Shown here one piece after another: positions 12,433 to 45,387 of a stretch of 49,651 nt of DNA. The notes under the pieces are model-generated. The model was given only the letters and a program-made list of their open reading frames with translations, did not search any database and was not told the origin of the DNA. The DNA is from Paludibacteraceae bacterium (GTDB lineage Bacteria > Bacteroidota > Bacteroidia > Bacteroidales > Paludibacteraceae): the NCBI GenBank assembly GCA_017430235.1, contig JAFRNH010000026.1:1-49651 (forward strand), written 5' to 3'. Each line of letters begins with the position of its first letter. Within the stretch, counting starts at the first letter, position 1. The position numbers were made by a program, and so were the translations under genes.

Positions 12433-12699
12433 ATATAACGTGTGTTCTATAAATTCATTGTTTATGCAAAATTAATACAATTACACCATAATGGACGCGG
12501 CAGGTCATAACGGACGCGGCACGCCACGTCCCTACATAAAAAAACGATAGTCAACTAAATCCACCTATTTTAACCTAGATTTGGTTGGCTATCGGTATGT
12601 TTTTGTATGGATAGCCAACTAAATCTATACTTTTTGGGTACGATTTAGTTGGCTATCTGATATTTTGACGGAATAAGTCGTCGGCAATGATTTGGTTCT
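12433..12699. repeat. 267-bp direct repeat, copy 1 (3' flank and tail of the DUF234 ATPase gene)
   Basis: This segment reappears at 17940-18206 at the same length and in the same orientation. By eye I count five substitutions and no indel, about 98% identity. It contains, left to right, a copy of the dispersed motif, a GC-rich stretch with two GGACGCGGC boxes, the four-unit palindromic array, and the last 46 bases unique to the ATPase coding end. Copy 1 is joined to the intact gene, so it is the likely source. Confidence 0.92.
12546..12657. repeat. Downstream palindromic array of the DUF234 ATPase (4 units, 32-bp period)
   Basis: Four 16-bp units with starts at 12546, 12578, 12610 and 12642, exactly 32 bp apart, alternate between GATAGCCAACTAAATC and its reverse complement GATTTGGTTGGCTATC (one or two substitutions). 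The spacers are also 16 bp. The last unit overlaps the ATPase stop codon. The same four-unit design is found upstream of the gene. Confidence 0.92.
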
Positions 12700-14083
12700 G
12701 AACATCACCGGCATACTCGTTGTTAACCAATCCTTCTGTTGTTATCATAACCATGAACACAGCCTTTTTAGTCTCCGTCTTTGACTGAAAGATGGCGACT
12801 TTTTGACGTAGCTCATCAGCATACTTCTTTTTTATTTCGTACTTACCTTGTGAGAATTTTATTTCACAGAGGTTGATGACTCCGTCGGCACGGTCGATTA
12901 GCAGATCTATCTGCGTACCTGTTTCATTGTCGTTTTTAGGACGGTAGAGCCATGAATAGACACTGCTGATGACGCCCGTTATCCCCAATGCATTTTTTAT
13001 TTGGTCGATATGTTGTAAACAGACACGCTCAAATGCCAGTCCGCACCATGCATTGTAAGTACCTCCGCCTATGGATCGAGACCAGAATTGCGGGTCTTTT
13101 GTCGAATTGTCTTCTACAAATCGGAAATAGAACAACGTGAAATTGTCGAATAACTGATAAAGAGTGTCTTTTTTTGCTTTTCCGATGGGAGTATATGTGC
13201 GGATGAAACCGCATAGTTCGAGTTCTTTCAGTATTTTTGAAAGTGTTCCGCCATGATCTTGATTGATGGCTGTGGCGATTTCTCCGCGTGTCATTCCGGC
13301 CTTTTTCTTTCCCAATGCTCTGACAATCTGGATATAGGGTTCTTTGTTTTTGAAGAGTGATGAATAAAGAGCGTCGAATTCGTTTCTGAGACTTGAATTT
13401 TCATTAAAGAATAGGGCATCGATGTTTTGAGCCCAACTAAGGCCACGTCTGAGGAGACTCCAGTAGTAGGGTACGCCCCCCAGAATCATATATGTCTGTA
13501 ACACTTGCATACGGGTCATTTTCAGTCCGCAAGCAGATGAGAACAGTTCGCATTTGTGCAAACTAAAAGGTTTCAGAAAGATTTGACGAGTAAGACGGTT
13601 GTGTAGTCCGCCATAATTATTTACTATTTTGCTGACAATCCAAGAGGAGGCGCTTCCGCAGATAATGAGTATGATGTCGCGACGCATGGTTGCCCATCCG
13701 TTCCAGAAATGTTCGAGGGCAGATACGAAGTCTGATTTTGGAGTATCCATCCAGGGCATTTCATCTATAAAGACGATTTTTTTCTCAGCGGAGACACTTT
13801 GTAGGAAACTGCCAAGTGCATCGAAGGCTTCAAACCAATCGTTTAGTTTGGGGCATTTAGACATACCGGCGGCGACAAGAGATTTTTCGAATACGGAGAG
13901 TTGGCGGTTTCTGTCGCCATTCTGCACACCTGTATGTTGGAAAGCAAAGTTGTAGTTGAAAGTTTCCCTGACCAGATATGTTTTGCCCACACGTCTTCTT
14001 CCGTAGATAGCTACGAATTCAGACTTGTCACTCTTGAGGGTTTCCAAGAGTAAGTTTTGTTCCAATTCACGTCCTACCAGCAT
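12653..14083 (-). CDS. AAA ATPase with DUF234-type C-terminal nuclease-like domain
   Basis: A 476-residue archaeal-type ATPase. Walker A is GRRRVGKT (28-35), Walker B is IVFIDE (103-108), and a STAND-like CGSASSW follows. A winged-helix segment near 260-300 (RGEIATAINQDHGGTLSKILKEL) precedes the C-terminal DUF234 region, which contains the PD-(D/E)xK-like GTQIDLLIDR and CEIKF. Proteins of this group are common and multi-copy in Bacteroidota, with no established function. The gene is flanked on both sides by four-unit palindromic arrays; the upstream array overlaps its promoter and the downstream array overlaps its stop. Fragments of the same gene occur at 15017-15085 and 18161-18206. Confidence 0.85.
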   Translation of the reverse strand: MLVGRELEQNLLLETLKSDKSEFVAIYGRRRVGKTYLVRETFNYNFAFQHTGVQNGDRNRQLSVFEKSLVAAGMSKCPKLNDWFEAFDALGSFLQSVSAEKKIVFIDEMPWMDTPKSDFVSALEHFWNGWATMRRDIILIICGSASSWIVSKIVNNYGGLHNRLTRQIFLKPFSLHKCELFSSACGLKMTRMQVLQTYMILGGVPYYWSLLRRGLSWAQNIDALFFNENSSLRNEFDALYSSLFKNKEPYIQIVRALGKKKAGMTRGEIATAINQDHGGTLSKILKELELCGFIRTYTPIGKAKKDTLYQLFDNFTLFYFRFVEDNSTKDPQFWSRSIGGGTYNAWCGLAFERVCLQHIDQIKNALGITGVISSVYSWLYRPKNDNETGTQIDLLIDRADGVINLCEIKFSQGKYEIKKKYADELRQKVAIFQSKTETKKAVFMVMITTEGLVNNEYAGDVQNQIIADDLFRQNIR

Positions 14084-14106
14084 AATAAACGAGTTTTATT
14101 ATGCTA

Positions 14107-14137
14107 CAAATATAGTATTCATTTTTCGGATAACCAA
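14107..14137 (-). promoter_or_regulatory. Promoter of the DUF234 ATPase, overlapped by its array
   Basis: The minus strand has TTG (14137-14135), a 20-base spacer and TATATTTG (14114-14107), 24 bases from the ATG. The -33 TTG lies inside the first palindromic unit (14129-14144), so anything bound to the array should affect this promoter. Confidence 0.6.
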
Positions 14138-14240
14138 CTAAATCTACTATTTTTAACCTAGATTTGGTTGGCTATCGGTATATTTTTGTATGGATAGCCA
14201 ACTAAATCTATTGTTTTTAGGTGGGATTTGGTTGGGAATT
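14129..14240. repeat. Upstream palindromic array of the DUF234 ATPase (4 units, 32-bp period)
   Basis: Units of the same 16-bp sequence in alternating orientation start at 14129, 14161, 14193 and 14225, exactly 32 bp apart. The fourth unit has decayed at its 3' half. Spacers resemble those of the downstream array (for example GGTAT.TTTTTGTATG between units 2 and 3). Confidence 0.92.
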
Positions 14241-14494: not shown

Positions 14495-14695
14495 ATGGCA
14501 ACAATAACTTTAAGTTACAATGCAAGGAATTCGATAGCAGCAAGTATGATTGACGCTATACGTAAGTCAGGTGTTTTCAAAATAGAGGAGAAAAGTGAAC
14601 AAGAAAGCCCGTATGATCCTAAATTTGTCGAAAAAATAGAACGAAGTAAAAAGAGCAAAGGGAAAAGTATAAAAACAGAAGATTTATGGAAGTAA
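14495..14695 (+). CDS. YefM/RelB-like antitoxin
   Basis: A 66-residue protein with a short N-terminal domain (MATITLSYNARNSIAASMID) followed by a charged, probably disordered C-terminal half (PYDPKFVEKIERSKKSKGKS). This layout is common in antitoxins of RelE/YoeB-type toxins in Bacteroidota. It overlaps the toxin frame by ten bases. Since the toxin is broken by a stop codon, the antitoxin is now an orphan, unless it protects against another toxin. Confidence 0.75.
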   Translation: MATITLSYNARNSIAASMIDAIRKSGVFKIEEKSEQESPYDPKFVEKIERSKKSKGKSIKTEDLWK

Positions 14696-14943
14696 TATAC
14701 AAAATAGAAGCTCTTAAAGATATTGAATATTGGAAAAAGACAAATGACAGAAGAATATAAAAGAAAATTTCAGAACTAATAGAAGATATATGCGAACATC
14801 CTTTTACGGGAAAAGGAAAGCCTGAACCACTAAAACATAACCTATCTGGCTTATGGAGTAGGAGAATCACACAAGAGGATAGGATTGTGTACGAAGTGGA
14901 GAATGGAAAGATAAACATATTGTCACTGAGAGGACATTATTAG
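14686..14943 (+). pseudogene. YoeB/Txe-family toxin with an in-frame stop
   Basis: Translation from ATG 14686 gives an 85-codon frame with one internal TAA at 14758-14760 (codon 25). Beyond it the sequence is intact and typical of YoeB: KHNLSGLWSRRITQEDRIVYEV then ILSLRGHY at the C-terminus, retaining the RRI, the glutamate/arginine pair and the terminal HY used for mRNA cleavage in the family. Single-base change appears to be the only lesion. Reinitiation downstream is possible but would lose the N-terminal helix. The coupled antitoxin gene is intact. Confidence 0.85.
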
Positions 14944-15016
14944 TGATTGCACCGTAGACAGGTTAGTTTTTTATAATATAAATTCCTTTATGTCAAAAAC
15001 TTGAAAATTTTTAGAG

Positions 15017-15085
15017 GCCATTCTGCACACCTGTATGTTGAAAAGCAAAGTCGTAGTTGAAAGTCTCCCTGATTAGATATGTTTT
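15017..15085 (-). pseudogene. 69-bp 5' fragment of a second DUF234 ATPase copy
   Basis: This segment aligns without gaps to 13916-13984, an internal part of the intact ATPase near its N-terminus (residues about 34-56), with about six substitutions. It is then joined directly to the 5' flank array, so some 135 bp that include the start codon are deleted. It marks a former second copy in the same orientation. Confidence 0.85.
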
Positions 15086-15095
15086 CATTTTTTCG

Positions 15096-15210
15096 GATAG
15101 CCAACTAAATCTACTCCTTTTAACCTAGATTTGGTTGGCTATCGGTATGTTTTTGTATGGATAGTCAACTAAATCTATATTTTTTTGTGTGTGTGATTTG
15201 GTTGAAAATA
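15096..15210. repeat. Palindromic array attached to the 5' ATPase fragment
   Basis: Three units of the DUF234 array start at 15096, 15128 and 15160, keeping the 32-bp period. The fourth, degenerate, starts at 15195, displaced by three bases through a small GTGTGT expansion. This is the left-hand border of the restriction-modification genes. Confidence 0.88.
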
Positions 15211-15414: not shown

Positions 15415-16125
15415 TCAATACTTGAATTTTATATAGTGTACTATTTTAGAAGCAAATTCCTCATAGTCATTATAAATGACAGCAGAAGAAAAAGTCCCAT
15501 ATTGTGCTTCTGATTCGCATACACACATATCTTCGTAATTTGAATAATATATAGTATATTCACTTCTGTTTCTTATTTCTTCGTTGATTTCAGGAAGATG
15601 AATAACAAAAAGAAGCGTTTTTGTTGGTGTGTGAATTGATGTTTCAATATTATCATTTGATAAAATTCGATACTTAGATGAGTTATGCAAGCTAAATTCT
15701 TCCCATTTCTGAAGTGTCCCATCGTTTTTATAATATGGAAGTTTGTCTGGAATGATAAAAATCTGGAAATAAGGTATGTCTGCACAACGTATATTGGCAG
15801 TTTCTCCCAACATGTTTTCAAAATAATTATTCGAATTCTGTGAATAATTTTGCATGACAAATTTCACGCCAATTCCAGCTATAGGTCTTTGGTTCTTTAA
15901 AATTGTAATGTCAACAGCTTTATCTATGTATTTGCCATCAATTTTCATTTCTTTCCCGTTTCCGATACCTAATGATTGTACAGAAAAACCTGATCCTAAA
16001 CGAGTCTGTAAATCTCTGGCAATTGCTCCATGAAGGATTTTTAACTTCTCATTACTTCGAGAACCTGTTTCAAGGAACTTTTTAAAAGAGTTCCCTACTA
16101 CTGTTAGAAATTCTTGATTGTCCAT
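15415..16125 (-). CDS. Type II restriction endonuclease (predicted)
   Basis: A 236-residue protein translated from within the 3' end of the methyltransferase gene (44-base overlap). Residues 65-113 contain KYIDKAVDITIL, then IAGIGVKFV (D72, K88), then a QNSNNYFENMLGETANIR block. This pattern occurs in a family of type II restriction enzymes with a PD-(D/E)xK-like core, although the central acidic residue is not obvious here (GVK). It presumably cuts unmodified DNA at the site methylated by the adjacent enzyme. Recognition sequence cannot be predicted. The pair is AT-rich relative to the 20-25 kb region, consistent with acquisition. Confidence 0.75.
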   Translation of the reverse strand: MDNQEFLTVVGNSFKKFLETGSRSNEKLKILHGAIARDLQTRLGSGFSVQSLGIGNGKEMKIDGKYIDKAVDITILKNQRPIAGIGVKFVMQNYSQNSNNYFENMLGETANIRCADIPYFQIFIIPDKLPYYKNDGTLQKWEEFSLHNSSKYRILSNDNIETSIHTPTKTLLFVIHLPEINEEIRNRSEYTIYYSNYEDMCVCESEAQYGTFSSAVIYNDYEEFASKIVHYIKFKY

Positions 16126-17536
16126 ATTTTTCTGTTAATTTATAATTCAAGTAATGTTCTAAGTCTTTAGAAGCGTAGGTATAATATCCTCCGCTTTTGT
16201 AATTTTTTAAAAGCTTGATGTATTCAATAAAATCTTCTGAATAAATAAGTTGTCTAATAGTTTCGAAATCGATGTCGGTCAAAATATACAGCCCACTATA
16301 GACTCCACAACCTTCGGGAACTATCTCCAATTTTATGCTATGTATGTCTTTGATAATGGTGTTTATAGCATATTTTGTTTTTGATACATCTTTTATCGCT
16401 TGTGTGCGACCGAACAAATACCAATATTTGTCATCTTGGATATCTCTGTTTTTTGGTAGTTTGTCTTGATGTGATAATAAAAAATCGTATGCCTCTTTCT
16501 TTATTATGAAATCACTTTGTGTTAATGGTTTCCCAAATTTGTCATACGGATAAATACATTTACTCCACTTCCCTGTTGATGCTTTCAAAATGTTTATTGT
16601 GCCTTCTGAAAAATCAAAATCACCAATGAAAATTTTATCCGCTAATGTTGCAAAACCATTCTTGACAGAGACATATTGATAAGAATGATTTTGTTTTATT
16701 TTTGTTAGAAATTCAAGATTCTCATTTTTAGACAGATAAATATTCTTACCAATGTTAATATTATTATAGGAGATATTATCTTGGAATTGTTTATCATGTG
16801 TATTCTCATTATAGTTGAAATATTCTATTTGATCGAACTTTTGTTTGTTATTAAATTTTGATATTAAAGTATAGGTTGTCGCTTCAAAAGGTTGATAATG
16901 TTCTAAATCAATTACCCCAGATAAGTTATGGTGTATCAGAATGTATTCTCGTAGTTTTGTCCCTGCTAAACTACTTAGCCATGAACTTGGCGTGATCAAA
17001 CACATCAAGCCATTTTTATTTAGCATTTTGAATCCTATTTCAAAAAAGACGATGAATAGGTCTGTCATTCCATCTTGAGCAAAGTTGTACTTCTTTACAG
17101 ATGTGTAACTGTTTTCAAGGTTATGAACACGCACATAAGGAGGATTTCCGAATACATAATCCATTTTTTCATTAAAGTCATCAATTGTAAGTGTGTCTGC
17201 ATTTAGTATGTTCCAATGTGTGTTTGTTATTCCATATTGTGAGGAAACTTTATCAAGATTGCTTTTACATTTTTCACATTCGACTTCATCTAATTCAATG
17301 CCATGGATGTATGTTTCTAACTCATGTTTTAGTAATGTTAAATCACTCTTTGTTTGAAGGAAATGTGAACAATAACGATTCACGATTTCGGTAAGAAATG
17401 CGCCATCTCCGCAACTGTTGTCGATGACGTGTTTGTGTAACAAATCGATAGTGTTATAGCCACCAAAATCAAGGATTAGATTTACAATATGGTCGGGTGT
17501 ATAGACACGACCATGCTTTTTTACAGCTTTTGCCAT
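16082..17536 (-). CDS. Type II N6-adenine DNA methyltransferase
   Basis: I choose the ATG at 17536 (MAKAVKKHGRVYTPDHIVNL) rather than a further upstream one, because the family begins with the GRVYTP motif and the extra 43 residues have an unlikely composition. The 484-residue product has motif I DNSCGDGAFLTE (about 39-50), motif IV NPPY (131-134) and a long C-terminal target-recognition region, as in Eco57I/TaqI-type gamma-class methyltransferases. It methylates adenine within the restriction site and protects host DNA. The endonuclease gene overlaps its 3' end, so the two are coupled. The whole module lies between two decayed ATPase-array remnants. Confidence 0.9.
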   Translation of the reverse strand: MAKAVKKHGRVYTPDHIVNLILDFGGYNTIDLLHKHVIDNSCGDGAFLTEIVNRYCSHFLQTKSDLTLLKHELETYIHGIELDEVECEKCKSNLDKVSSQYGITNTHWNILNADTLTIDDFNEKMDYVFGNPPYVRVHNLENSYTSVKKYNFAQDGMTDLFIVFFEIGFKMLNKNGLMCLITPSSWLSSLAGTKLREYILIHHNLSGVIDLEHYQPFEATTYTLISKFNNKQKFDQIEYFNYNENTHDKQFQDNISYNNINIGKNIYLSKNENLEFLTKIKQNHSYQYVSVKNGFATLADKIFIGDFDFSEGTINILKASTGKWSKCIYPYDKFGKPLTQSDFIIKKEAYDFLLSHQDKLPKNRDIQDDKYWYLFGRTQAIKDVSKTKYAINTIIKDIHSIKLEIVPEGCGVYSGLYILTDIDFETIRQLIYSEDFIEYIKLLKNYKSGGYYTYASKDLEHYLNYKLTEKYGQSRISNSSRELF

Positions 17537-17939
17537 ACGCAATAATTTTGTGCGTTTGGCAATTTGTCTCCTACGAACACAGAGCGTGGACGAATCTTGT
17601 CCAACTCTGCGGTCGTAGGAAACCGAATCACACAGACAAAGAAACGCCCACGCAAACGTGAGCATTCACTAATCTGTTCATCGGTGTGAATTTTGAAATT
17701 TCCTACGTTTCAGAGTTCTCCGAACAAATAGCAAACGCTAAGATTAATACTATGTTAATTAAAAATACTTTCTGTTTTTGTATAAATAGTTATAAAAATT
17801 CAACATAAGTTGTTACTTTGCGGGTGCCACTGCAACTTTAGCGTGTTGAAGCGCACTTCGTAATCATCTACAAATATATTATCTTATTTTGAAAGAATCA
17901 TATTTCTGGAAGATTGATGTTCGATAAATTTTCTAAATC
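17537..17939. other. Region upstream of the methyltransferase
   Basis: About 400 bases with no start-codon gene that I trust. On the minus strand a frame without ATG is open from 17709 to 17521 (protein-like stretch PTTAELDKIRPRSVFVGDKL) and ends 16 bases inside the methyltransferase start; it may be a relic. On the plus strand a TTACTTTGC near 17814-17822 resembles a promoter box with no gene after it. The 267-bp repeat begins at 17940. Confidence 0.4.
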
Positions 17940-18206
17940 ATATAACGTGCGTTCTATAAATTCATTGTTTATGCAAAATTAATACAATTACACCATAATG
18001 GACGCGGCAGGTCATAACGGACGCGGCACGCCACGTCCCTACATAAAAAAACGATAGTCAACTAAATCCACCTTTTTTAACCTAGATTTGGTTGGCTATC
18101 GGTATGTTTTTGTATGGATAGCCAACTAAATCTATACTTTTTGGGTACGATTTGGTTGGCTATCGGATATTTTGACGGAATAAGTCGTCGGCAATGATTG
18201 GGTTCT
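17940..18206. repeat. 267-bp direct repeat, copy 2 (with 3' tail of a lost ATPase copy)
   Basis: About 98% identical to 12433-12699. The right end contains only the last 46 bases of the ATPase coding sequence, after which the match stops. The rest of that ATPase copy is gone. It forms the right border of the restriction-modification genes. Confidence 0.92.
18053..18164. repeat. Palindromic array within repeat copy 2
   Basis: Four 16-bp alternating units start at 18053, 18085, 18117 and 18149, again at exactly 32 bp. Same sequence family as the arrays at 12546, 14129 and 15096. Confidence 0.9.
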
Positions 18207-18230
18207 TTGCTGGTTGTTAGGCTGGCACCG

Positions 18231-18258
18231 TAGAGACGCAATGCATTGCGTCTCTACA
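18231..18258. repeat. Perfect 28-bp palindrome (REP-like)
   Basis: GTAGAGACGCAATG is followed immediately by its exact reverse complement CATTGCGTCTCTAC. Palindromes built on GTAGAGACG...CGTCTCTAC are dispersed in several bacterial genomes; a related element is at 49299-49342, inside a gene. Possibly spread by a REP-associated transposase elsewhere in the genome. Confidence 0.8.
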
Positions 18259-19045: not shown

Positions 19046-19170
19046 ATTAATAATCTACCTTGTGTTTATAATAAGATTCACAAAAATAAACAAAATACCT
19101 TTTTGGTTCAAATATTAAAAAAGCACTGCAAGAGGGAGATTTCGTCCGCCCCCTCTGCAATATCATGCAA

Positions 19171-19274
19171 AAAGTTTTAATCATACTTAAAACTCTTCCA
19201 ATTTTTTACAAAAGTTTTAATTGTATTTAAAACTTTCATATATTTGCGCAAAAGTTTTAAGTACATTTAAAACA
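19171..19274. repeat. Operator-like array: three 24-bp palindromes, 40-bp period
   Basis: Units AAAGTTTTAA-N7-TTAAAAC start at 19171, 19211 and 19251, exactly 40 bp apart. Each is an imperfect palindrome (AGTTTTAA...TTAAAACT). The spacers are 16 bp and unrelated in sequence. Unit 2 covers the -33 region and unit 3 covers the transcription start and leader of the downstream ATPase, the arrangement expected for a repressor-binding site. Confidence 0.9.
19239..19246 (+). promoter_or_regulatory. -7 box of the first DUF4143 ATPase
   Basis: TATATTTG lies in the spacer between palindrome units 2 and 3, 35 bases from the ATG. Confidence 0.55.
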
Positions 19275-19281
19275 TTCGACA

Positions 19282-20496
19282 ATGAGCAAGAGAAGGGAAA
19301 TCATAGAACGGAACGAGTATACATCTCGCATACAGCCATTTATAGGCAAGCAGATTATAAAAGTGTTCACAGGGCAACGTCGTGTGGGTAAGAGTTGTTT
19401 GCTTCAACAAATCATGAACAAAATCAGTCTCACACAACCTGACACAGCATTAGTCTATATCAACTTAGAGGAATACGAACTCTCAAAAATCAGAACCGAT
19501 GAGCATTTGCATCAATATATCACCACACACACATCTCCTGATAAAAAAACGGCATTGTTCATTGATGAAATACAGAATGTCAATGGCTTCGAGAAAGTCC
19601 TCCGTTCACTCTTACTTAACGAATCTTTCGATATCTATGTGACAGGTAGCAATGCCAAAATGCTCTCAAGTGAGTTGGCAACTTACCTGAGTGGTCGTTA
19701 CATAGAAATACCTGTTTATGGCCTTTCGTATCCCGAATTTATTGAATTTAACAACATTGCCGATTCTGATCAAAGCTTTGAAAAGTATGCACGATTCGGT
19801 GGACTGCCTTTCCTTCGTCATCTTCCTCTTGAAGAGTCAATCGTCACTGATTATCTGAAATCGGTTTATTCCACCATCTTATTCCATGACATAACCGAAC
19901 GGTATCAAATCCGTAACACTTTGTTTTTAGAAAACTTAGTGAAATTTCTTGCGGATAATGTTGGTTCACTTTTTTCGGCAAAAAACATCAGTGATTATCT
20001 GAAATCGCAGTTTTCAACATTGTCAGTCAACCAAATACAAGCATACGCAGGTTATCTATGCAATGCATTTATGCTTCATAACGTGAAACGATATGATTTG
20101 GCAGGCAAACGGATGTTTGAAGTAGGAGAGAAATACTATTTTGAAGACCTAGGGATACGTAACGTGTTGGTGGGATACCGGTCCAAAGATAAAGGGAAGA
20201 TACTTGATAATCTGATTTTCAAGCATTTGAAATATTTAGGATATGATATAAAGGTGGGAAATATGAATGGACAGGAAATCGATTTCGTCGCTGAAAAGAA
20301 CAATGAGCGCATCTATATACAGGCTGCCCTTGCCATAAATGATGAAGAGACGGAGAACCGTGAATTCGGCAACCTATTGAAAATCAAAGATAACTATCCT
20401 AAGTACGTCGTCACATGGAATGGCTTCGAAGGCAATACATACGAGGGAATTGAGGAACTTTCCGTTCGCCAATTCTGTTCAAGAAAAGATTTCTGA
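19282..20496 (+). CDS. AAA ATPase with DUF4143 domain
   Basis: A 404-residue P-loop ATPase. Walker A is GQRRVGKS (31-38), Walker B is ALFIDE (91-96), followed by VTGSNAKML sensor-like residues (about 116-124). A winged-helix-like part (FSAKNISDYLKSQ, about 233-245) precedes the DUF4143 region. The nuclease-like core EIDFVAEKNNERIYIQAAL has glutamine where catalytic lysine would be, so nuclease activity is unlikely. Function is unknown for this widely duplicated Bacteroidota family. Expression is probably controlled by the three palindromes over its promoter. The next gene follows by 16 bases. Confidence 0.85.
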   Translation: MSKRREIIERNEYTSRIQPFIGKQIIKVFTGQRRVGKSCLLQQIMNKISLTQPDTALVYINLEEYELSKIRTDEHLHQYITTHTSPDKKTALFIDEIQNVNGFEKVLRSLLLNESFDIYVTGSNAKMLSSELATYLSGRYIEIPVYGLSYPEFIEFNNIADSDQSFEKYARFGGLPFLRHLPLEESIVTDYLKSVYSTILFHDITERYQIRNTLFLENLVKFLADNVGSLFSAKNISDYLKSQFSTLSVNQIQAYAGYLCNAFMLHNVKRYDLAGKRMFEVGEKYYFEDLGIRNVLVGYRSKDKGKILDNLIFKHLKYLGYDIKVGNMNGQEIDFVAEKNNERIYIQAALAINDEETENREFGNLLKIKDNYPKYVVTWNGFEGNTYEGIEELSVRQFCSRKDF

Positions 20497-35352: not shown

Positions 35353-38300
35353 TCATTTCTTTGTGAATCGTTTGATGACAGTTCCATTTTCAGTCTCCAT
35401 CACAAGGATGTATGCACCTTGTGTTAAAGCGGAAACGTTGATAGTGAACTCAGAACTGCTCACTTCGCCACCCATCATAATTCTTCCTGAGATATCAGAA
35501 ATGGAGTAGCTAGTAACATTCAAAGATTCAGCTTTCACATTCAATGAAGTCTCCACCAAAGTTGGGTAAACTGAGATAGAGCCGTTCAAGACATCAGAGT
35601 TAGCATCTACCGGATTCAATTGAATGATGTAAGGATTGCTCAAAGTACCAAGTGTTGCATCGTCTGCATATACGAGGTCTTGATCCAATACATATTCAAA
35701 GCCGTTGTAGATTACTTTGATCGTCAACGCGTCGGCAGACTCGCCACCCATTACGGTAAGGAATGCCAAAGAGTTTTCATCCGTAGCGGCAGCCGCACGG
35801 CATTTGCCCTTAGCATCGAAGATGCCTATCTGAACGTCGTTAAGAACATCGTGGCCATCTTTTACCACTGCAACGATGGTCATGTTGCCAGAGTATGCAG
35901 TTTCATTGACAGTCTTGTAGACGGTCTCAGTGGTTGTGTTCTTAGAGATGAGAGATCTCAAAGAAGAGCTCTTAGCAGGATATTTGAATGTGCGTTTTTC
36001 ACTAGCCACACTCTTGAACATATATCCCTTGCCAGGAGTCAACGCGTTCAGCGTACCTACCCACTCGTAACCCTCGTAGTAAGCGAATCCGCTTTGTCCT
36101 TTGACCATATCACCATCCACAGGGTTCAAATCAGCGAATGCCTCGTTCAATGACATGATGGCAGTGCTGTTGAATCCGATCCAGTTCCATCCGGACTTGA
36201 TGGTTACCGTCTCCTTGCTAGCGTCTATTGCGTCGCCGGCAACTTGATAGTCGGTAGCGGTGTTCATCTGAACTTTGTACATAGAACCGATCTTTACAGT
36301 CTTCAAAGCACCAGAGAACTCATCGCCATTGGATTGAGAGAAGTTGGTCTTTGATTTCAAAACGTTAGTCTTGTTAGCGATATCGCCGAAGACAGCGTTG
36401 ATAGAGTCGTTGGATGGTTTAACATTCAACGAGATCCAGTTCCAACCCTTCTTCAAATCCAAATTCTGCTCTTGCAACTTGTTCGAAGAAAGAATGATAG
36501 GTTCAGCCATAGAACCGTACAATTTGTTCGAAGAGAATTTGATGTTTGAAGAGGTGCTCAAAGTAGGGTATGTCACACCAGTGGAAGCATCCCAAGCTTT
36601 GAATACAACCTTCTTGTTAGCATCGGTTGAGTTGCCATAGATGTCCAAAGAGACGAAGTAAGCATCGTAGCGAGAATAGTACTTAGGAGAAGCGACTCCC
36701 ACACAAGTACCATTGATGAACGCAGCCACTAGGTCTTCAGTGTCAGTGCTATAGTTGTCATCCAATTTCAATTGAGCGATTACACTCATTGAGTTTTCGA
36801 ACTGAGAAGGATCGACATTCCAGTTAGGTTTGCCAGCGTTCACCTTCAAGTTGAGGGTGAATGGTACGTTGATACCCTCGTTACCAACAAGGTAAATGGT
36901 CTCTTCGTAAGAGCCTGTTGGTACGGCGTTGCTAATTTGGAACTCGATAGTTTCAGATTTCAAAGCAGATAAAGAACCGCTGTTCTTGCTAGCAGTCAAC
37001 CAAGAAGGAAGATTGCTGATAGACCAAGATTCAGTAGTAGCGCCTTGGTTGACAACAGAGACATTGAATGAAGCCTCATCCTCAGTGTTCTTCTCCAAAG
37101 AGATGGCGTCGTCACCCCAGATCAAACGATTTTGGTTGACGTATGCGCTCCATGTAACAGGCAATGAGAAGTTGTTGTTCTCATCACGTACGTTCTTCAC
37201 TGTGAAGTTAACTGTTGTACCTTCCAAGCGACTAGGGTTCTCGTTCAATGTGATTGCCACAGTACGTTCAGATGCTACAAAGCTGTAGTTTACTTTCGTC
37301 ATGTTTGGTTTTGGTTGCAATGCAGGGGCAGTAGCAGCTTCGGTAACAGAGCCTTTAGCTTTTCCTACGGCGTTGAGGCTCATATCTTTCAATGAGAACT
37401 CGTATATAGTTATACCTGCATCCAAAGTATCTCTTTCAAATGGATAGTAAGCTTCCAAACCAGCCTCGTCACCCTTTAATCGGATATAACGGTTTTGGTC
37501 AATAGCTTTTGCATTGAAGGTAGCTAACCAGTAGCGAACCTCATCCACATCACCCTTGAAGTAGTCTTTATAGTCGAATACTGCGTAACTTGGACTATAA
37601 CGTTGAGCACCGATTGTCAATTCTGATGCCTGAAGAGCAGGTACTTTAGTAGAAGACAATTGTTTAACGATAGCACCATCCACATAGATAGTAGTAGTAC
37701 CATTGCGCAAAACGTTCATTGCAACGTGGTGCCATGCACCATCCAGATAGTTTGCTGTAGAGAGTTGGTTCTCCACGCTATCAGTAAGCAATGTCAAGTA
37801 ACCGTTAGCATTGAATTTCAATGCCACCTTTGTATTTGCACTCCATAGAGTAGCGTTCTTTTGGCTTTTTCCACGGAACCACATCTCCATCATATAGTCG
37901 TCAGAACTCAAAGCAGTGCTGCGAGTGATGTCGAGTGACAAGTGGTTTTCACCAGTAAGTTTAGCTGCAATGTTCTTGTTGTTCAAATACCAGCTATCTG
38001 CTGCCAAAGCCATATTACGGCTACGTGCTGCATCCTTAGCCACTGTACCATGACCTTCATTGAATTTCCAGTAACCGATTAAGTTTTCTGTAGAAGCAGA
38101 TTTAGCAAAATGCATTTGACTTTGCGATTCATCATTAGTACGTTTTGTTCCCCACAATGCTACTTCGCTAATAGCACCACGGATATTCTTTCCTAATGAG
38201 AGTGTTCCCGTTGCACCATATACAGGAAGTTTCTTGTCGGCCAACAATTTCACATCTTCAGCATCGTAAGCTACCAATGCGCTGATAGAAGCAGCAGAAT

Positions 38301-41300
38301 CTGATTTGACGTCGTAGCTTAATGTCAAGAAGCACCATTTGTTGAATGGAATAGTCTCGGATGAAGTAGCTTTTGTACCATTGACATTGACGGTCAATTT
38401 ACCGGTTGAACCAACGGAAACAGTGAAGTTCTCGTCCTTAGAGTTGTGTTTCAACAATGTACCGCCAGAAGAAAGGTTCACCCACATATCGATAGTGAAG
38501 CTCTTCTTAGCCAAACCGATTTTAGCTTCAGTGGCAGCTGCGAATTTAGAAGTGCTATCCATCTTCAAAGCTACGTTATGATCCACTTCGGCATCGTTCA
38601 AAACAGCCTCTATGATGAAGTTATCATTCTTAGAAAGCAAACTGTTGCGGATATCCTCGTTGTAAGTAACGCTGATTTCGTCGCCAGCCTCTAAGATACC
38701 GTCAGAAGGATTAGGATTACCCAACACTTGAGGGCGAGCCATATCCTTGATCAATTCGATTGTCTCACTCTCGTTGGTAATGATGTCGCTTGCACCCTTA
38801 GCACATACGGAGATGGCGCGGAATTGATAAGTTTGATCATTGAACAAGTTGGAAGACATAGGGTAGGATATAACCTGACGAGCACCGTCAAGATCTTCCA
38901 CCATGAATTTTTTAGCCAAGTTCCAATTGTTGTCACGCTCACCCTTGTATTGTAGACGGATCTCGGTGAAGTTTAAATAATCCTTCTCGAAATCTTTTAT
39001 AACCAATTGAAGTGTGTCGTGAGTTTCAATGTTCATCGTTCTGTCATCGATTTGAAGAGTCAATGGAGAACAGCTAGGGATGAATTCAACAGACAAGTAA
39101 ATCGTATCAGCGATATCTTCCTGACAATTAGAAGAAAGAACCACAGCGATGCTATCGTACTTCATGATATCCATACGAGATTGCTTGATCTGAAGGTTCT
39201 TGTGAGTAGTCTCCATAGCGTTCACCAAGATCTGACGAGCGGTAGCAAATGGCACACCATCGATAGACAAAGCGGCACCGTTAGGATTGGTTTCGTCCAA
39301 TACTCTCATTGTGTACCAGATATTTTCACTTGTTTCAGACAAGTTGTCGAGATTCAAGGTGAAGTTGGCAGCAGAACCACTTGGAATGTTAATCTGTTTT
39401 TGAGCTTTCAGATTATTTTCAGCAACAGTGATTCTTGGATATTCAATTTGCATGGTCTTGGTAGCCAATGTGTGCTTATCCTTTTCATAATATTTGGTCT
39501 TCTTTTCATCCTCGTAAGGACATGAAGTCTGACCTGCACGAGTATAGAAAATAGGGCCAAAACCATCAGGAGCTTGGAATACATCCACAGACAAAGCATC
39601 ATTAACTCCATCGTCTGCCAATGTATAACCGATTGACGTACAATTCTCAGTCTCAGAAGACTCTTCGAATCCTTCTGTACCACCTTGTTTAGTTTCAGCT
39701 TCGATAGAGAAACCGAAACCGGAGAATGTGAATCCAGTTGCAAGTCCAACAACAGCTAATCCCTTTGTGCTAGTAGCATCTGTAGTAGATGTTGAACCAC
39801 AACGTTCAATAGATTCTTCTACTTCTGTACCAGCATCAAAAGAGACATTTTTCACTTTCCAACCATTATTATAGAATAAAGTGATGCCCATCTCGTTTGG
39901 TTTGGCAAGTAAATATTTTTCGTATTCTTCACGAGAAATAAGTAATTTGTCAAAAATGGCATCAATCATAATTTTATTGTCTCCGTATTCTGAATATTTA
40001 ACGCCATCTTGGTATTTGAACCAGAAAGTTGAATCTAACTTCACATATTCTGGTTTATCCGGATTAAATAGTAAATAGAGAGTGTTTTCTAATGATTTAG
40101 CTTCCTCAATCTTTCTAACGGCCTTATTGTATTCTTCTTCATTGTAATCTGAATGAGATTCAATAGCATACACTTTTGCTATCTCATTGTATGCTAATTG
40201 CATTTTCCAAGTATTTATTTGAGAGTTGAAATAACCAACAGTATCTGTGTGGTTATCTTTATTCTTGATTGATGGAATACAATAATAGGTTCCTTTGGTA
40301 CCATACTGTTCATTATCTTCATTCAATTTCGTAATATAGATTGTCTCATCCGTATTGTTAGGATAGTCCATGCTATATTCCGTTGCACTTACCTTTCTCA
40401 AGAAAGAATTACGGACAGTCGTCAAGTTAGGAATTAATACATTCTCAATATAGTTTTGGGTGTATTTGAACTGAGTTGTAAGCTCATCGCCCAAACTTAC
40501 TGCTTCAAACATATCGATTGAATAATTTCCATCAACATCTTTCACAGGAGCTACCTTACGAGTTTTTCCCATGATAATGTTGGTAGAACTACCTATAAAC
40601 AAATCACCGTCTTCACCTACATAGTCACTCTCAGAAGATGTACTAATTTTTTCTGTTGCCGTTATTTTGTATGTGTTAGATTGTTCATGAGTAGCGTCAT
40701 AACTGATTTCAGTTCCAACGTTCACATCAAATTTGCTTTCTGCGTCAGAAATAATAGCAACACCTATTCCCACTGCGGTTCTGGTTTCCAAACCAAATTT
40801 CAATACAGACTTTAATGAATACTCAGAATTATACTCTGTAGTAACCTTAGATGATGTAGTAATTGTTTGACCTTTTTCCAAATAAGCAGAAGAGCCGGAT
40901 CCTGGTGGGTCACGTAGTACGAACAACACCTTGTCTGGTCCTGCGGTAATGAAATTGCTACCTGTTTGCAATCCTCCTGTCACGATACCTGCGAATTTGC
41001 CATTCTCAGACCATTCGTAACTTTCATCATTGTAAACGAAGTTTATGTTCATTCCCAAAGTGTATGGCTCTACAATGTTTGGATATGTAGCTTGGAAAGA
41101 GTAGTCGACCTTTCCTAAAGAGTCTGTTAGTAAAGCCATGTTGCCAGATTCAACGACATCACCATCCTTGACATCGTTACCATTTTCATCTGTTCCATTT
41201 TCGATAGCGACTGCTATAGCGCCTAAGTTATTGGAAATCTTAATGTCTGCATTTGTCAATGGAATCTCAGTCTTTCGAACTGTTGTGCTATCGTAATTGT

Positions 41301-44300
41301 AGTATGGTTCATACAAGTATATTTGATGTTTATATTTACACCCTTGTGTGAACAATGGATAACCAAATGTGTAAGATACGTTTCCAATGCTATCTACAGA
41401 ATACAGAGGTATTGTGTCGAGAGCCAATGTCGCGTCATCCTTATATACATATTTTTCGTCTCCAAATGCATTGATATTATTGTTGTTTGACGTAAATTCT
41501 AATACAGGATTAGAACGATGGATTAGATCCAAAGCATACAAATACTCAAATGTAGCAGTATCTCCTTCAGCTATTGCTAAAGAATCTGTTGTTGTATGTA
41601 ATGAACCTGTTCCAAGCAAGATTGATTCAATATTCTCCGTAGAGAATTGAATAGTTGGGTTGTTGTCCACTTTCACACTCTTGACTTTAAAGTCAACTGG
41701 TGGCAAAGAGACAGCAAACTCACCTGTTGCAGAATCTGTGTGAATAGTAATGACTTTTGCTTTTTCACCATCATCGTATTTGCCTGTTGTAACAGTCGAA
41801 TTCACATATTCAGAAGGATTGCCAAATGTACGGATTTTTGTTTTGTCCAAATTAAATTGCACATTATCTCCTGCTGTCAATGTGATGGTTGCTTTTCCGA
41901 TGGTAGCTTGTCCAGTACCCAATCCATGAGGTTTCTTGCTTTCTGGTACACCTCCAGCAACACGACCGGTGAGGGTAACGAATGTGGAATCGTAGAAGGT
42001 CAATCCACTCAATTCTGACTCAAATGTATATTCCTTCAATGAATTGGATGGGAAACGTCCGTTATTCGCAAATACGTGGGTCAATCCATTCTCTTGTTTC
42101 TTCACTTGGATGTGGTGATCTCCGATAGGAACACTGATGATAAATTCACCATTTGCATCTGTTGTGATTAACTCGCCATCCTTGCTACATATTGTACCAT
42201 CCACATAGATGTTGGCACCTTCAACTGGATAGCTTGTATTGTAGTAGGTAACAGATCCTTTTACAGGGAAGGAAGATACATCTTCAAAATTGACACCAGA
42301 ATAAACCAATGAGGTAGGAGAGATAAAACGTGTTGCATCCTCTGGTGTGAACTTATGAACGCCATAACTTGGGGTAATCATATAAGTAGTACCCTCTCCA
42401 CTAAATGGGATACCGTTAATTGTGTAATTACCTTTGTTATCAGTATATCCAAAGATACTTAATTGGTTTTCCGTAGGAATATTGTTTGAGGAAACGAAAT
42501 CTCCTTTCACGATTGTTCCGTGGTTATTATTGCAAGCACCAGCTGTCTTTGAGTAATCATAAAGTGTAGATTGGTTATTGATGCCCTCATCCATTGGCCA
42601 ATACAACACTAAATTTTCTTCATTTCCTGATAATGTATGGTTAAAGTTTTTCTTAATCTCCGCATCTGTGAGTTCCTTGCCAGAGAAGATTCTTACTTCG
42701 TCTAAATAGCCACGGAAAATATCCTTGTCGTTGGATGCAGCTCCGAACAGTAGACATGAGTCTGCTTTGTATGTGATTGACTCGGCTTTTACTGAAGATT
42801 TTGTAATCTTCTCAACTGCATCTGTACTTCTCACTTGGAAATTACCATTGCCATCATAGCTGAATGTCAGATGAGAATATTTATTGACAGGGATCTTGAC
42901 CGATGTCTCCACATATTTCATTGAATCACCAGTAGCATACATCACACCAACAGTATATTTCGTTTTACTTGCTGGAGTCAGATAGAGACCAAAGTTATTT
43001 TTGGAATCTATCAAAACTGATTTCTCCACGACATCTCCATTTCTACCTTTGATACTGTCTTCAGGTCTAACATACATCTGGATGGTCCATGGTTTGCCTT
43101 CAAAATAGGATTTTCCTTTTTCCTCGGTCAAAGGCAATTGAATACCATTTCCATCTGCACGAAGTGCATAGAATTGATCTTTGCCTCCTTCATCTACATT
43201 TTTTATTGCTACGACTTTCACGCCTTCAACAGCTGTACCTGTTCCATAAGTTACACGACCAGAAAGAACACCGGTAGCACGACAGAAACCTTCAGCATAT
43301 TTAGACAAAGGTTGAGTTTCGGCACTGTCTTCTGGACAGTAGTAAGATGAGGATACTTTATACTCATAATATTTCCCTGGCAAAGCAGAGTTATCATCGT
43401 AAGCATAACTTGTTTCTGTTCCAGATACGTTGTAAATCTTTACCCAATCTCCAGAGGTTCCTAACTCACGACGATACACATTATAATTCGTACTTTGTGT
43501 TCCTACTTGAATAGCACTCCATGATAATTTCACAACTCCTTGGTACATTCCTTTGGAGGCTTCAACAGAGGTGACTTGTGAAGATGACGTTAGATTACCA
43601 GATACCATATTGCTGCAGAATTGTCGACCTTTAGTCAAATCATCGCTAAATAAATAGGAGGTTTTTACGTAATAAAAATAGGTTGCACAGCCACTTTCTA
43701 TGGATTTGTCTTGATAACTATAATGAGTGACGGAATTATCAGTCACAGAAATAGGAGATGTTAATATTGAAGAAAAATTTGCAGAATCTTTTTCATCTGT
43801 TCCTCTATATATTTGGAATGAGTGGCTTTCCTTATCCATAAAAGGAGTAATGTCCCAATCTATTTGAATATAATCATCATTAGGACTTATATTGGCTGTT
43901 ATAGAAAAGTCTCTAGTTAAAACATTTTCTTTTGATTGAGAAACAGCATGACGACCAATCAATTTATTATCATCAGTCCAATTACTTGGGATAAATTCTA
44001 CCCAATAGGTATAGTTTACATCATATAATAATGATTCATCGCTGTCAAAATCTCCGGACTTTGCCCCCTGTATAACGAGTTTACAATCTGCTTGAGTACC
44101 TATTCCATCCTCTGTTACATATCGATATACATTATAACTGCCGCTTGCATTGTTCAACACATCCTCATCCCATGTTAATTTAAATGCTTTTTTCCATGGG
44201 TTAGGGGTGCATGATAGATTCATGGCATTTGAATATTTATATTTGAAATTTGAATCTTTTATATTATCTTCTATAGAATTCAAATTACATCTATTCCCTG

Positions 44301-45387
44301 CCACGTCGGATACTGAATTGTTTATCGAATTGACTTTCAATTCATTGGCGTCAATTTTTTCATTTAAAACGCCTTTAAAATAAAGGATATTCGACCCATC
44401 GCCTCCAGCATAATCAAATGTACCTACATTTGTTTCTATTTTTGAGGATGATGAAATATTAACAATCTCATTAAATTTTAATGCAATAGTTAAAATATCT
44501 CCACGAGTATATCCACGTTCGCTATTACATGAGACTCCCAAAAGTTTTGGCGCATCAGTATCATATACTCTAAAGTATCCAGTAAGATTAGAGACTATAA
44601 TTTCATCATCGCTGTCACCTTCAGCATCCCACCATGTGTATAGCAGATCTCCTCCTTTTCTAGGGTCTAATACTTGTCTTTCCCATACACCAAAGGAACG
44701 GGTATACCATGTTTCTGAAGAGCCCCAATCATCATACCTATTATCTATTACCCAAGCGTCATTAATAATGTGAGCTTTTATCATATAATAACCATGATAA
44801 AGTCGATACGTGTTAAATGAAAACCAAGTATCAATTTTCCATCCTTCTGGTTGAGCAATCATATATTCTTGCTCTGCAGGTGTGAATATATCCCAAAAGT
44901 AAACAAAATATTGTTTGACGGATTTATCATTCCATGCAAATTGGTTTGACATTAATTTTGAACGCCAATTTGAATTATAAGAAAACCCTTTTTTGGTTTT
45001 GTATACTGCTTCTGCATAATGATTCTCACTAAAATCATTCCAAGCAACGAAACCATATTTACGATCCACGTTACTAAACGCATCTATGCCTGAAGGATTA
45101 TCTATTGTTTTTACTTCAACACTTTGTGTGGTTACTCCTTTGTCGAAATACAATCTTCCAGATTGATGCTCAAAGTGTATTCCACCAATTGCTGAACCAT
45201 CCATGGTTCGATAATTCACAACAGTTGCCGCCGATGCGTCCGCTCGTTCGACGGTAAACTTATTTCCATTAACCGTGACGGATTTAATCACGTCACTCTG
45301 CGCTGCCCAACATAATGAGCTTATGCTCAGGAATATGGCCATAAGCCACCCTCGCATTCGCGCTTTCTGAAAAAATACTTTTCTCAT
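35353..45387 (-). CDS. Giant T9SS-secreted multidomain surface protein
   Basis: A 3344-residue protein, the largest gene here. The signal peptide ends near LCWAA (about residues 24-29). A Calx-beta-like segment (about 50-95) is followed by fibronectin-III-like repeats (about 390-705), carboxypeptidase-regulatory-like beta-sandwiches (about 705-745 and 1035-1110), and three LamG-like jelly-roll domains (about 760-935, 2280-2445 and 2485-2650), each with its WxMDEG, WKFNEGHG or YYPFERDT end motif. A BACON-like domain (PSWLTASKNSGSL, about 2790) and the type A sorting domain (last ~75 residues, DISGRIMMGG... ending KRFTKK) complete it. LamG and BACON-like parts suggest binding to glycans or host matrix. 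A single-gene unit with its own promoter and terminator. Confidence 0.88.
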   Translation of the reverse strand: MRKVFFQKARMRGWLMAIFLSISSLCWAAQSDVIKSVTVNGNKFTVERADASAATVVNYRTMDGSAIGGIHFEHQSGRLYFDKGVTTQSVEVKTIDNPSGIDAFSNVDRKYGFVAWNDFSENHYAEAVYKTKKGFSYNSNWRSKLMSNQFAWNDKSVKQYFVYFWDIFTPAEQEYMIAQPEGWKIDTWFSFNTYRLYHGYYMIKAHIINDAWVIDNRYDDWGSSETWYTRSFGVWERQVLDPRKGGDLLYTWWDAEGDSDDEIIVSNLTGYFRVYDTDAPKLLGVSCNSERGYTRGDILTIALKFNEIVNISSSSKIETNVGTFDYAGGDGSNILYFKGVLNEKIDANELKVNSINNSVSDVAGNRCNLNSIEDNIKDSNFKYKYSNAMNLSCTPNPWKKAFKLTWDEDVLNNASGSYNVYRYVTEDGIGTQADCKLVIQGAKSGDFDSDESLLYDVNYTYWVEFIPSNWTDDNKLIGRHAVSQSKENVLTRDFSITANISPNDDYIQIDWDITPFMDKESHSFQIYRGTDEKDSANFSSILTSPISVTDNSVTHYSYQDKSIESGCATYFYYVKTSYLFSDDLTKGRQFCSNMVSGNLTSSSQVTSVEASKGMYQGVVKLSWSAIQVGTQSTNYNVYRRELGTSGDWVKIYNVSGTETSYAYDDNSALPGKYYEYKVSSSYYCPEDSAETQPLSKYAEGFCRATGVLSGRVTYGTGTAVEGVKVVAIKNVDEGGKDQFYALRADGNGIQLPLTEEKGKSYFEGKPWTIQMYVRPEDSIKGRNGDVVEKSVLIDSKNNFGLYLTPASKTKYTVGVMYATGDSMKYVETSVKIPVNKYSHLTFSYDGNGNFQVRSTDAVEKITKSSVKAESITYKADSCLLFGAASNDKDIFRGYLDEVRIFSGKELTDAEIKKNFNHTLSGNEENLVLYWPMDEGINNQSTLYDYSKTAGACNNNHGTIVKGDFVSSNNIPTENQLSIFGYTDNKGNYTINGIPFSGEGTTYMITPSYGVHKFTPEDATRFISPTSLVYSGVNFEDVSSFPVKGSVTYYNTSYPVEGANIYVDGTICSKDGELITTDANGEFIISVPIGDHHIQVKKQENGLTHVFANNGRFPSNSLKEYTFESELSGLTFYDSTFVTLTGRVAGGVPESKKPHGLGTGQATIGKATITLTAGDNVQFNLDKTKIRTFGNPSEYVNSTVTTGKYDDGEKAKVITIHTDSATGEFAVSLPPVDFKVKSVKVDNNPTIQFSTENIESILLGTGSLHTTTDSLAIAEGDTATFEYLYALDLIHRSNPVLEFTSNNNNINAFGDEKYVYKDDATLALDTIPLYSVDSIGNVSYTFGYPLFTQGCKYKHQIYLYEPYYNYDSTTVRKTEIPLTNADIKISNNLGAIAVAIENGTDENGNDVKDGDVVESGNMALLTDSLGKVDYSFQATYPNIVEPYTLGMNINFVYNDESYEWSENGKFAGIVTGGLQTGSNFITAGPDKVLFVLRDPPGSGSSAYLEKGQTITTSSKVTTEYNSEYSLKSVLKFGLETRTAVGIGVAIISDAESKFDVNVGTEISYDATHEQSNTYKITATEKISTSSESDYVGEDGDLFIGSSTNIIMGKTRKVAPVKDVDGNYSIDMFEAVSLGDELTTQFKYTQNYIENVLIPNLTTVRNSFLRKVSATEYSMDYPNNTDETIYITKLNEDNEQYGTKGTYYCIPSIKNKDNHTDTVGYFNSQINTWKMQLAYNEIAKVYAIESHSDYNEEEYNKAVRKIEEAKSLENTLYLLFNPDKPEYVKLDSTFWFKYQDGVKYSEYGDNKIMIDAIFDKLLISREEYEKYLLAKPNEMGITLFYNNGWKVKNVSFDAGTEVEESIERCGSTSTTDATSTKGLAVVGLATGFTFSGFGFSIEAETKQGGTEGFEESSETENCTSIGYTLADDGVNDALSVDVFQAPDGFGPIFYTRAGQTSCPYEDEKKTKYYEKDKHTLATKTMQIEYPRITVAENNLKAQKQINIPSGSAANFTLNLDNLSETSENIWYTMRVLDETNPNGAALSIDGVPFATARQILVNAMETTHKNLQIKQSRMDIMKYDSIAVVLSSNCQEDIADTIYLSVEFIPSCSPLTLQIDDRTMNIETHDTLQLVIKDFEKDYLNFTEIRLQYKGERDNNWNLAKKFMVEDLDGARQVISYPMSSNLFNDQTYQFRAISVCAKGASDIITNESETIELIKDMARPQVLGNPNPSDGILEAGDEISVTYNEDIRNSLLSKNDNFIIEAVLNDAEVDHNVALKMDSTSKFAAATEAKIGLAKKSFTIDMWVNLSSGGTLLKHNSKDENFTVSVGSTGKLTVNVNGTKATSSETIPFNKWCFLTLSYDVKSDSAASISALVAYDAEDVKLLADKKLPVYGATGTLSLGKNIRGAISEVALWGTKRTNDESQSQMHFAKSASTENLIGYWKFNEGHGTVAKDAARSRNMALAADSWYLNNKNIAAKLTGENHLSLDITRSTALSSDDYMMEMWFRGKSQKNATLWSANTKVALKFNANGYLTLLTDSVENQLSTANYLDGAWHHVAMNVLRNGTTTIYVDGAIVKQLSSTKVPALQASELTIGAQRYSPSYAVFDYKDYFKGDVDEVRYWLATFNAKAIDQNRYIRLKGDEAGLEAYYPFERDTLDAGITIYEFSLKDMSLNAVGKAKGSVTEAATAPALQPKPNMTKVNYSFVASERTVAITLNENPSRLEGTTVNFTVKNVRDENNNFSLPVTWSAYVNQNRLIWGDDAISLEKNTEDEASFNVSVVNQGATTESWSISNLPSWLTASKNSGSLSALKSETIEFQISNAVPTGSYEETIYLVGNEGINVPFTLNLKVNAGKPNWNVDPSQFENSMSVIAQLKLDDNYSTDTEDLVAAFINGTCVGVASPKYYSRYDAYFVSLDIYGNSTDANKKVVFKAWDASTGVTYPTLSTSSNIKFSSNKLYGSMAEPIILSSNKLQEQNLDLKKGWNWISLNVKPSNDSINAVFGDIANKTNVLKSKTNFSQSNGDEFSGALKTVKIGSMYKVQMNTATDYQVAGDAIDASKETVTIKSGWNWIGFNSTAIMSLNEAFADLNPVDGDMVKGQSGFAYYEGYEWVGTLNALTPGKGYMFKSVASEKRTFKYPAKSSSLRSLISKNTTTETVYKTVNETAYSGNMTIVAVVKDGHDVLNDVQIGIFDAKGKCRAAAATDENSLAFLTVMGGESADALTIKVIYNGFEYVLDQDLVYADDATLGTLSNPYIIQLNPVDANSDVLNGSISVYPTLVETSLNVKAESLNVTSYSISDISGRIMMGGEVSSSEFTINVSALTQGAYILVMETENGTVIKRFTKK

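Follow-up and report, generated by a model that had tools for sequence, protein, structure and literature searches.

A 49,651-nucleotide stretch of a Paludibacteraceae bacterium (contig JAFRNH010000026.1 of assembly GCA_017430235.1; this whole stretch is the window of what follows) carries on its minus strand a gene for a 476-residue ATPase-nuclease, P0001 (12653..14083), that matches the family PDC-S27 and lies between two arrays of palindromes, and we propose, at a probability of roughly 0.6, that the gene and its flanking palindromes constitute a mobile element of one gene, the product of which acts on the element's own palindromic ends. That the palindrome-gene-palindrome block is mobile appears well supported by the comparison of related loci, and we infer that the encoded ATPase-nuclease drives this movement. 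Array A, the downstream end (12546..12657), is made of palindromes at 12546-12593 and 12610-12657, and array B, the upstream end (14129..14240), of palindromes at 14129-14176 and 14193-14240; each palindrome spans 48 bp, with 16-bp arms and a 16-bp loop, and a 16-bp gap separates the two palindromes of an array. The mobile unit measures about 1.6-1.8 kb and holds one long gene, other open reading frames (ORFs) merely overlapping the ATPase gene both in the window and at the related locus L245. An earlier note on the window had offered two readings of the arrays, as binding sites through which the ATPase regulates its own gene or as ends of a mobile cassette, and the second is well supported: at different chromosomal sites the homology stops at the palindromes or close to them, and empty sites and solo palindromes exist.

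Between homologues at 78-100% DNA identity the match is often confined to the gene with its palindromes, as seen among 37 compared pairs without long flank homology, which are not all independent, do not all have detectable palindromes, and include L120/L132 (one site with an insertion or deletion), L057/L058 (which end close to contig ends), five pairs that involve the truncated L059 and six in which more homology lies beyond. The element at locus L127 occupies three sites in five genomes (G016; G017 and G022; G019 and G020), and its homology to the G016 copy is bounded in G019 and G020 by the outer edges of the two palindromes and reaches 36 bp further upstream in G017 and G022. The left flank of the G016 site is present without the element in G021, G017, G019, G018 and G022, so that G017, G019 and G022 carry the L127 element elsewhere. 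The L136 element of G019 sits at another site in G020, with homology from palindrome to palindrome, and at another in L055 (homology -92..+61 against palindrome edges -92/+60, and -91/+59 for L055), and the left flank of the G019 site lies in G020 on a different contig, without the element or a palindrome. Palindromes of the L136 type, sought in seven genomes, were found in just two elements and at one solo site, with no other carrier, and those of the window's type, sought in the 16 genomes of the genus, were confined to the gene or its remnants.

Empty and nearly empty sites are also preserved among relatives. Across the 16 genomes of the genus, the site of the L088 element is occupied in G014 and G000 and empty in G001, G004, G005, G009 and G013, where 30 bp of other sequence lie between the two flanks; both flanks also occur in G003, together with one repeat that bears a palindrome, a different insert is present in G006, and in the remaining seven genomes the two flanks were not found together. 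Because trees of the flanks group G003 with the occupied genomes (support 0.99 for the left flank and 0.79 for the right), the flanking sequences favour loss of the element, which would have left a solo palindrome behind, over the alternative that the palindrome predated the insertion. A solo palindrome of the L136 type stands in G021 after a fabG-like gene (recognised by eye), and the corresponding place in G018 and G022 is without one. For the window's own element, the outer flanks of the related loci L003 and L004 are nearly joined in G003, G004 and G013, and the right edge of the insert lies about 20 bp beyond the array. G008, a draft of 310 contigs in which the gene is cut by a contig end, contains both an empty junction and an occupied copy and thus may mix strains. 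Palindromes of the window's type occur in 7 of the 16 genomes, in five with the gene and in two (G014 and G015) with remnants of it.

Other arrangements at or near such sites were observed as well. At the G014 locus that matches the window's ATPase site (L303 2490-4465, G014:C27), two other genes lie between two remnants, each a palindrome plus a gene tail. At L245 50-1420 (G019) and in G020:C16, an ATPase-like gene (by eye) lies between two terminator-like hairpins after a fabG-like gene and has a half palindrome at its left; this ATPase-like gene is absent at the corresponding place in G021, and the roughly 100 bp inspected there in G018 and G022 do not contain it. The stretch L095 1195-1392 of G002 belongs to a dispersed repeat of about 200 bp, listed at over 15 places in each of the genomes G002 and G007, and it adjoins the PDC-S27 element of L095 in G002 and is absent at that place in G007; we rejected it as a part of the element, since it forms a separate dispersed family.

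The association of gene and palindromes extends across a set of 109 distinct genes, obtained by merging the best 80 of 279 relatives from a contig scan, the 16 genomes of the genus and loci from seven more genomes. Upstream and downstream flanks share sequence (local alignment score above 20) in 50 of the 100 genes that have 350 bp on both sides, a count that does not represent 50 independent cases because many of the 109 genes are orthologous to one another, versus 2 of 204 neighbouring ORFs, both of which are one orthologous ATPase-like gene (by eye; L040 and L059) whose match is a near-repeat of 43 bp. Palindromes were detected no farther than 130 bp from the gene in 67 of 108 cases on the upstream side and in 47 of 106 on the downstream side; among 140 stretches at a distance of more than 1.3 kb 1 had a palindrome, and among shuffled sequences 0 of 108 and 0 of 106. 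The counts for the genes are lower bounds because the finder missed two short upstream palindromes visible by eye in L009-L013. The two copies around a gene are alike in most shared-flank loci and stand mostly in direct orientation, as judged from loci with more than 80 bp of flank. A second draw with the PDC-S27 profile (E<=1e-50) found 23 of 149 genomes of the order positive, one of them with nine copies, and yielded 30 loci, of which four were set aside as incomplete and three of the 26 complete ones were already in the first set; flanks are shared in 11 of these 26 and in 9 of the 23 genes new to the analysis. Three genes of the DUF4143-type family PDC-S01, a small number, had enough flank for the same comparison, and shared flanks were present in none of them and an upstream palindrome in two.

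Between loci the palindromes differ yet share a half-site, from inner to outer about GATTTCCGCAGATTATAA (a consensus drawn by eye), and the distance between half-sites tracks the distance between proteins: with 103 proteins of at least 440 residues aligned and 66 palindromes used, the Mantel correlation is 0.569, a value reached in 0 of 2000 permutations, the largest of which gave 0.206. This correlation fits co-evolution of the protein with its ends and fits plain joint descent as well.

Within the window, all eight 16-bp units that the earlier note had listed at 32-bp steps (12546 to 12642 and 14129 to 14225) are in place, and seven of them deviate from GATAGCCAACTAAATC, read on one strand, by 0-1 mismatch; the eighth, the upstream unit farthest from the gene (14225-14240), is degenerate, with 4 mismatches counted by eye, so that array B, like array C described below, has a degenerate outermost half-site. 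With up to three mismatches, GATAGCCAACTAAATC has 15 matches in the window (14 in arrays and one isolated at 17455), whereas 100 shuffles gave 0.44 on average and at most 3, which rules out a chance origin. The window holds four arrays, starting at 12546, 14129, 15096 and 18053, and a search of the 2.71-Mb draft genome (88% complete) with up to two mismatches found no fifth array and six isolated matches of two mismatches each. As single strands the palindromes fold strongly, with z-scores of -4.3 and -11.4 for the two of array A, whose last unit (12642-12657) overlaps the stop codon at 12653-12655, as had been noted. The 32-bp period is constant across the array in the window and in G006 (locus L002) and is replaced by spacings of about 32, 41 and 32 in L003, L004, L006 and L007, for which reason exact phasing was rejected. 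Since the spacing inside a palindrome is kept among relatives and the gap between palindromes varies, the palindrome is the conserved unit, and the proposal that bound units would face one side of the helix across the array finds no support; most other homologues with a detected palindrome moreover show one palindrome on that side. We also rejected an RNA element (no Rfam match at gathering thresholds), a CRISPR-like array (the inter-unit stretches of different arrays largely resemble one another) and a dispersed REP family (beyond the isolated mismatched matches, the palindromes in the genomes searched are confined to elements, remnants and the solo site).

The encoded protein combines an ATPase_2 domain (PF01637), a middle part and a C-terminus that, by its conserved residues, carries a PD-(D/E)XK nuclease pattern, the fold being predicted from sequence. 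The PADLOC profile PDC-S27 covers residues 2-471 of 476 in P0001 (E 5e-205), and both it and ATPase_2 match all 69 aligned homologues, in which the Walker motifs are conserved, E352, Q391, D393 and K409 are invariant and E407 is kept in at least 90%. The middle part has weak helix-turn-helix matches in some homologues, of the IclR type in 5 of 69. The gene had first been described as DUF234-type; Pfam DUF234 (PF03008) scores 19.3 bits against P0001, below its cut-off of 22.5, and is matched by 20 of the 69 homologues at E<=0.01. No DDE or HUH/Y1 transposase family was found in P0001 or among the 22 Pfam families that the 69 homologues match. By sequence, the PDB entry that matches best is TnsC of Tn6677 (profile positions 21-175, E 1.3e-4), a weak match whose best stretch alone has an i-E of 0.0097 and which may merely reflect the ATPase fold.

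The upstream end bears a near-fixed relation to the promoter of the gene. A putative promoter at 14107..14137 on the minus strand consists of TATATTTG at 14107-14114 and, 19 bp before it, TTGG at 14134-14137, a pair that we take to be of the Bacteroidota type; TTGG falls inside the first upstream unit (by eye), and thus inside the first palindrome of array B, in agreement with the overlap between array and -33 box described earlier. TAnnTTTG is the Bacteroidota -7 box, and it is found no more than 75 bp from the ATG in 81 of 108 genes, versus 5% in mononucleotide shuffles, and 2-21 bp past the inner edge of the palindrome in 50 of the 57 genes that have both; the centre of the upstream palindrome is at -58.5 to -81.5 from the ATG in 53 of 67 genes. 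A TTG at -33 inside the palindrome is strictly matched in just 5 of 57 genes, and we therefore limit the claim to the spacing between palindrome and TAnnTTTG. As the sequence is laid out, the upstream palindrome would cover the upstream half of the ATPase gene's promoter, and a protein bound to its own end would therefore also repress its own gene. Both this near-fixed distance and the divergence of the palindromes with the protein make the first reading of the earlier note, binding by the ATPase with autoregulation, plausible and compatible with mobility.

On these grounds we can outline how such an element might work. The winged-helix-like and ATPase parts would bind the palindromes, and the PD-(D/E)XK-like domain would cut at or near them, perhaps when they are extruded as a hairpin or cruciform; the block would then be moved or copied to a new site, and recombination between its direct repeats could later delete the gene and leave one palindrome. 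Binding at the upstream end would also repress expression of the gene, as occurs in many insertion sequences when an end that lies over the promoter is bound. A further claim, that PDC-S27 represents a class of autonomous transposable elements in which an ATPase-PD-(D/E)XK fusion recognises, cuts and moves the DNA between its own co-evolving palindromes without a known transposase or recombinase, we put forward tentatively, at somewhat less than even odds.

Several observations weigh against a mobile element that acts on its own ends. The junctions inspected by eye, few of them clean two-sided sites, gave no recognisable target-site duplication; the empty sites of the L127 and L136 elements were found on the left side alone; and the insert at the site of the window's element measures 2.6-4.1 kb, larger on the left than the gene and its arrays. 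An active insertion sequence would give several near-identical copies, and none of the seven genomes searched with three elements has them. In L006/L007 and L009-L013 the block of homology already stops at the stop codon or close to it, the gene of G006 is interrupted by a stop codon, and most of the genomes are draft metagenome-assembled genomes, some of which may mix strains. The earlier note had taken homologues without flanking arrays as a sign against a link to the gene, and the family divides on this point, with shared flanks in 50 of 100 homologues and 9 of the 23 genes new in the second draw and no shared flanks in the other 50 and 14; more than half of the homologues are without a detected downstream palindrome. 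Finally, ends and protein correlate less well over the C-terminal part (0.39, and 0.13 among distant pairs) than over the ATPase part (0.56 and 0.43), and joint descent alone would also be expected to give ends that diverge with the protein.

These observations leave room for other explanations, the first of which retains mobility and transfers the activity to another protein. The block may travel as a passenger, its hairpins recognised by an unrelated transposase or a single-strand HUH-type enzyme elsewhere in the cell, and this would accord with an encoded protein that matches no transposase family and with the strong folding of the palindrome strands, hairpins being typical signals of HUH transposases. 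Such signals are described for IS608 and ISDra2 in the available text of PMC6006769. We nevertheless regard a passenger as unlikely: the same ends were found on no other element, in seven genomes for the L136 type and in 16 for the window's type, and the ends diverge together with the protein encoded between them. A regulatory role alone, with the palindromes as operators or terminators of an autoregulated enzyme and the flanking copies kept similar by gene conversion, would account for the position of the upstream palindrome relative to the ATG and for the frequency and placement of TAnnTTTG, and is improbable in our judgement because it leaves unexplained the palindrome-bounded homology at different sites, the empty sites and the solo palindromes.

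PDC-S27 could instead be a true single-gene antiviral system that is shuffled by ordinary homologous recombination and by neighbouring mobile elements. All 69 aligned homologues match the profile of this candidate defence family, and arrays C and D enclose a methyltransferase gene; in the available text of PMC12988326, PDC families are guilt-by-embedding candidates, most of the core set awaiting validation. A mobile gene would likewise appear embedded in other systems, however, and a block bounded by its own palindromes at unrelated sites is not expected from ordinary recombination, so that we consider this explanation very improbable; defence and mobility are not exclusive and can coexist. 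An element that acts on its own palindromes is thus the reading that we retain. Its carriage by phages, as far as records allow, looks rare: 7 of 50,697 phage records match, all at less than 60% identity, and a scan of IMG/VR gave no confirmed relative. Among plasmids, 132 of 72,556 records match, again all below 60% identity, 19 of them conjugative and 4 mobilizable.

The window also preserves part of the history of its element. A 267-bp segment at 12433..12699, which comprises the region of array A and 42 bp of the ATPase gene's 3' end beyond the array, is duplicated at 17940-18206 with 98.1% identity. Array D (18053..18164), of the downstream type, lies within this duplicate and beside the 42-bp remnant of the gene's 3' end (18165..18206, minus strand), and array C (15096..15204), of the upstream type and 88% identical to array B including its near flank, with its outermost half-site truncated, lies beside a remnant of a second ATPase copy (15017..15085, minus strand) that corresponds to about residues 33-57. 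Because pieces of the ATPase gene adjoin both, arrays C and D look like leftovers of further copies. The genes between them (15415..17665, minus strand) are an Eco57I-type methyltransferase gene (16082-17665) and a gene for a 236-residue protein without a family match (15415-16125). In G015 the remnants are again present, here with one palindrome and nothing in between, a state that would be expected after recombination between D and C or at a stage before the genes entered.

Elsewhere in the window, three spaced palindrome-like copies of about AAAAGTTTTAA-N6-TTAAAAC (by eye), some 40 bp apart, lie at 19168-19280 upstream of a DUF4143-type ATPase gene of PDC-S01 (19282-20496) and may be operator or end repeats. 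A DUF2683 gene followed by a second frame at 14495-14945 has a toxin-antitoxin-like layout (by eye) and is apparently interrupted by a stop; a perfect 28-bp palindrome, GTAGAGACGCAATGCATTGCGTCTCTAC, occupies 18230-18257; and an ORF of 3344 aa extends over 35353-45387.

The PDC-S27 element resembles several known systems in part. In REP/RAYT systems the palindrome is matched to the gene. TnpA-REP genes are likewise tied to palindromes whose orientation alternates in composite arrays (PMC2817692, in the text available), whereas here there is no HUH/Y1 transposase family and the palindromes are not dispersed in the genome. TnsA of Tn7-like transposons is a PD-(D/E)XK-fold nuclease, and TnsC gives the weak match to the ATPase part noted above, perhaps one of fold alone; in contrast to Tn7-like transposons, the PDC-S27 unit has no TnsB (DDE), consists of one long gene and ends in palindromes. 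With insertion sequences it shares a single gene, an end beside the promoter, different sites and empty sites (several of them one-sided), but here no known transposase family is present, both ends are the same palindrome, mostly in direct orientation, and no target duplication was seen. Among archaeal-type ATPases the link is to ATPase_2, matched in all 69 homologues, and weakly, in 20 of them, to DUF234, to which Pfam assigns no function.

The original PDC preprint is reportedly that of Payne et al. 2024. In the accessible portions of PMC12988326 and PMC13356809, PDC-S27 is a candidate defence system, and both it and the related PDC-S01 are treated as defence genes that act singly, without mention of palindromic ends, empty sites or solo scars; the fusion of an ATPase with a PD-(D/E)XK-type domain is stated in PMC12988326, and the counts given are 3503 in Archaea and 4562 in Bacteria (PMC12988326) and 2865 occurrences in rumen genomes (PMC13356809). 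Our literature search, mostly of titles and abstracts and with preprints outside its range, returned no account of palindromic ends or mobility for the PDC-S27/DUF234 family. If PDC-S27 genes of Bacteroidales are palindrome-ended mobile genes, their embedding in other systems could reflect insertion and not function, in which case surveys of defence content would need correction and many counted defence candidates would be mobile elements. A concrete end sequence and a set of residues are now available for an ATPase family without a known function, and the element may represent a way of moving DNA that falls into none of the known recombinase classes.

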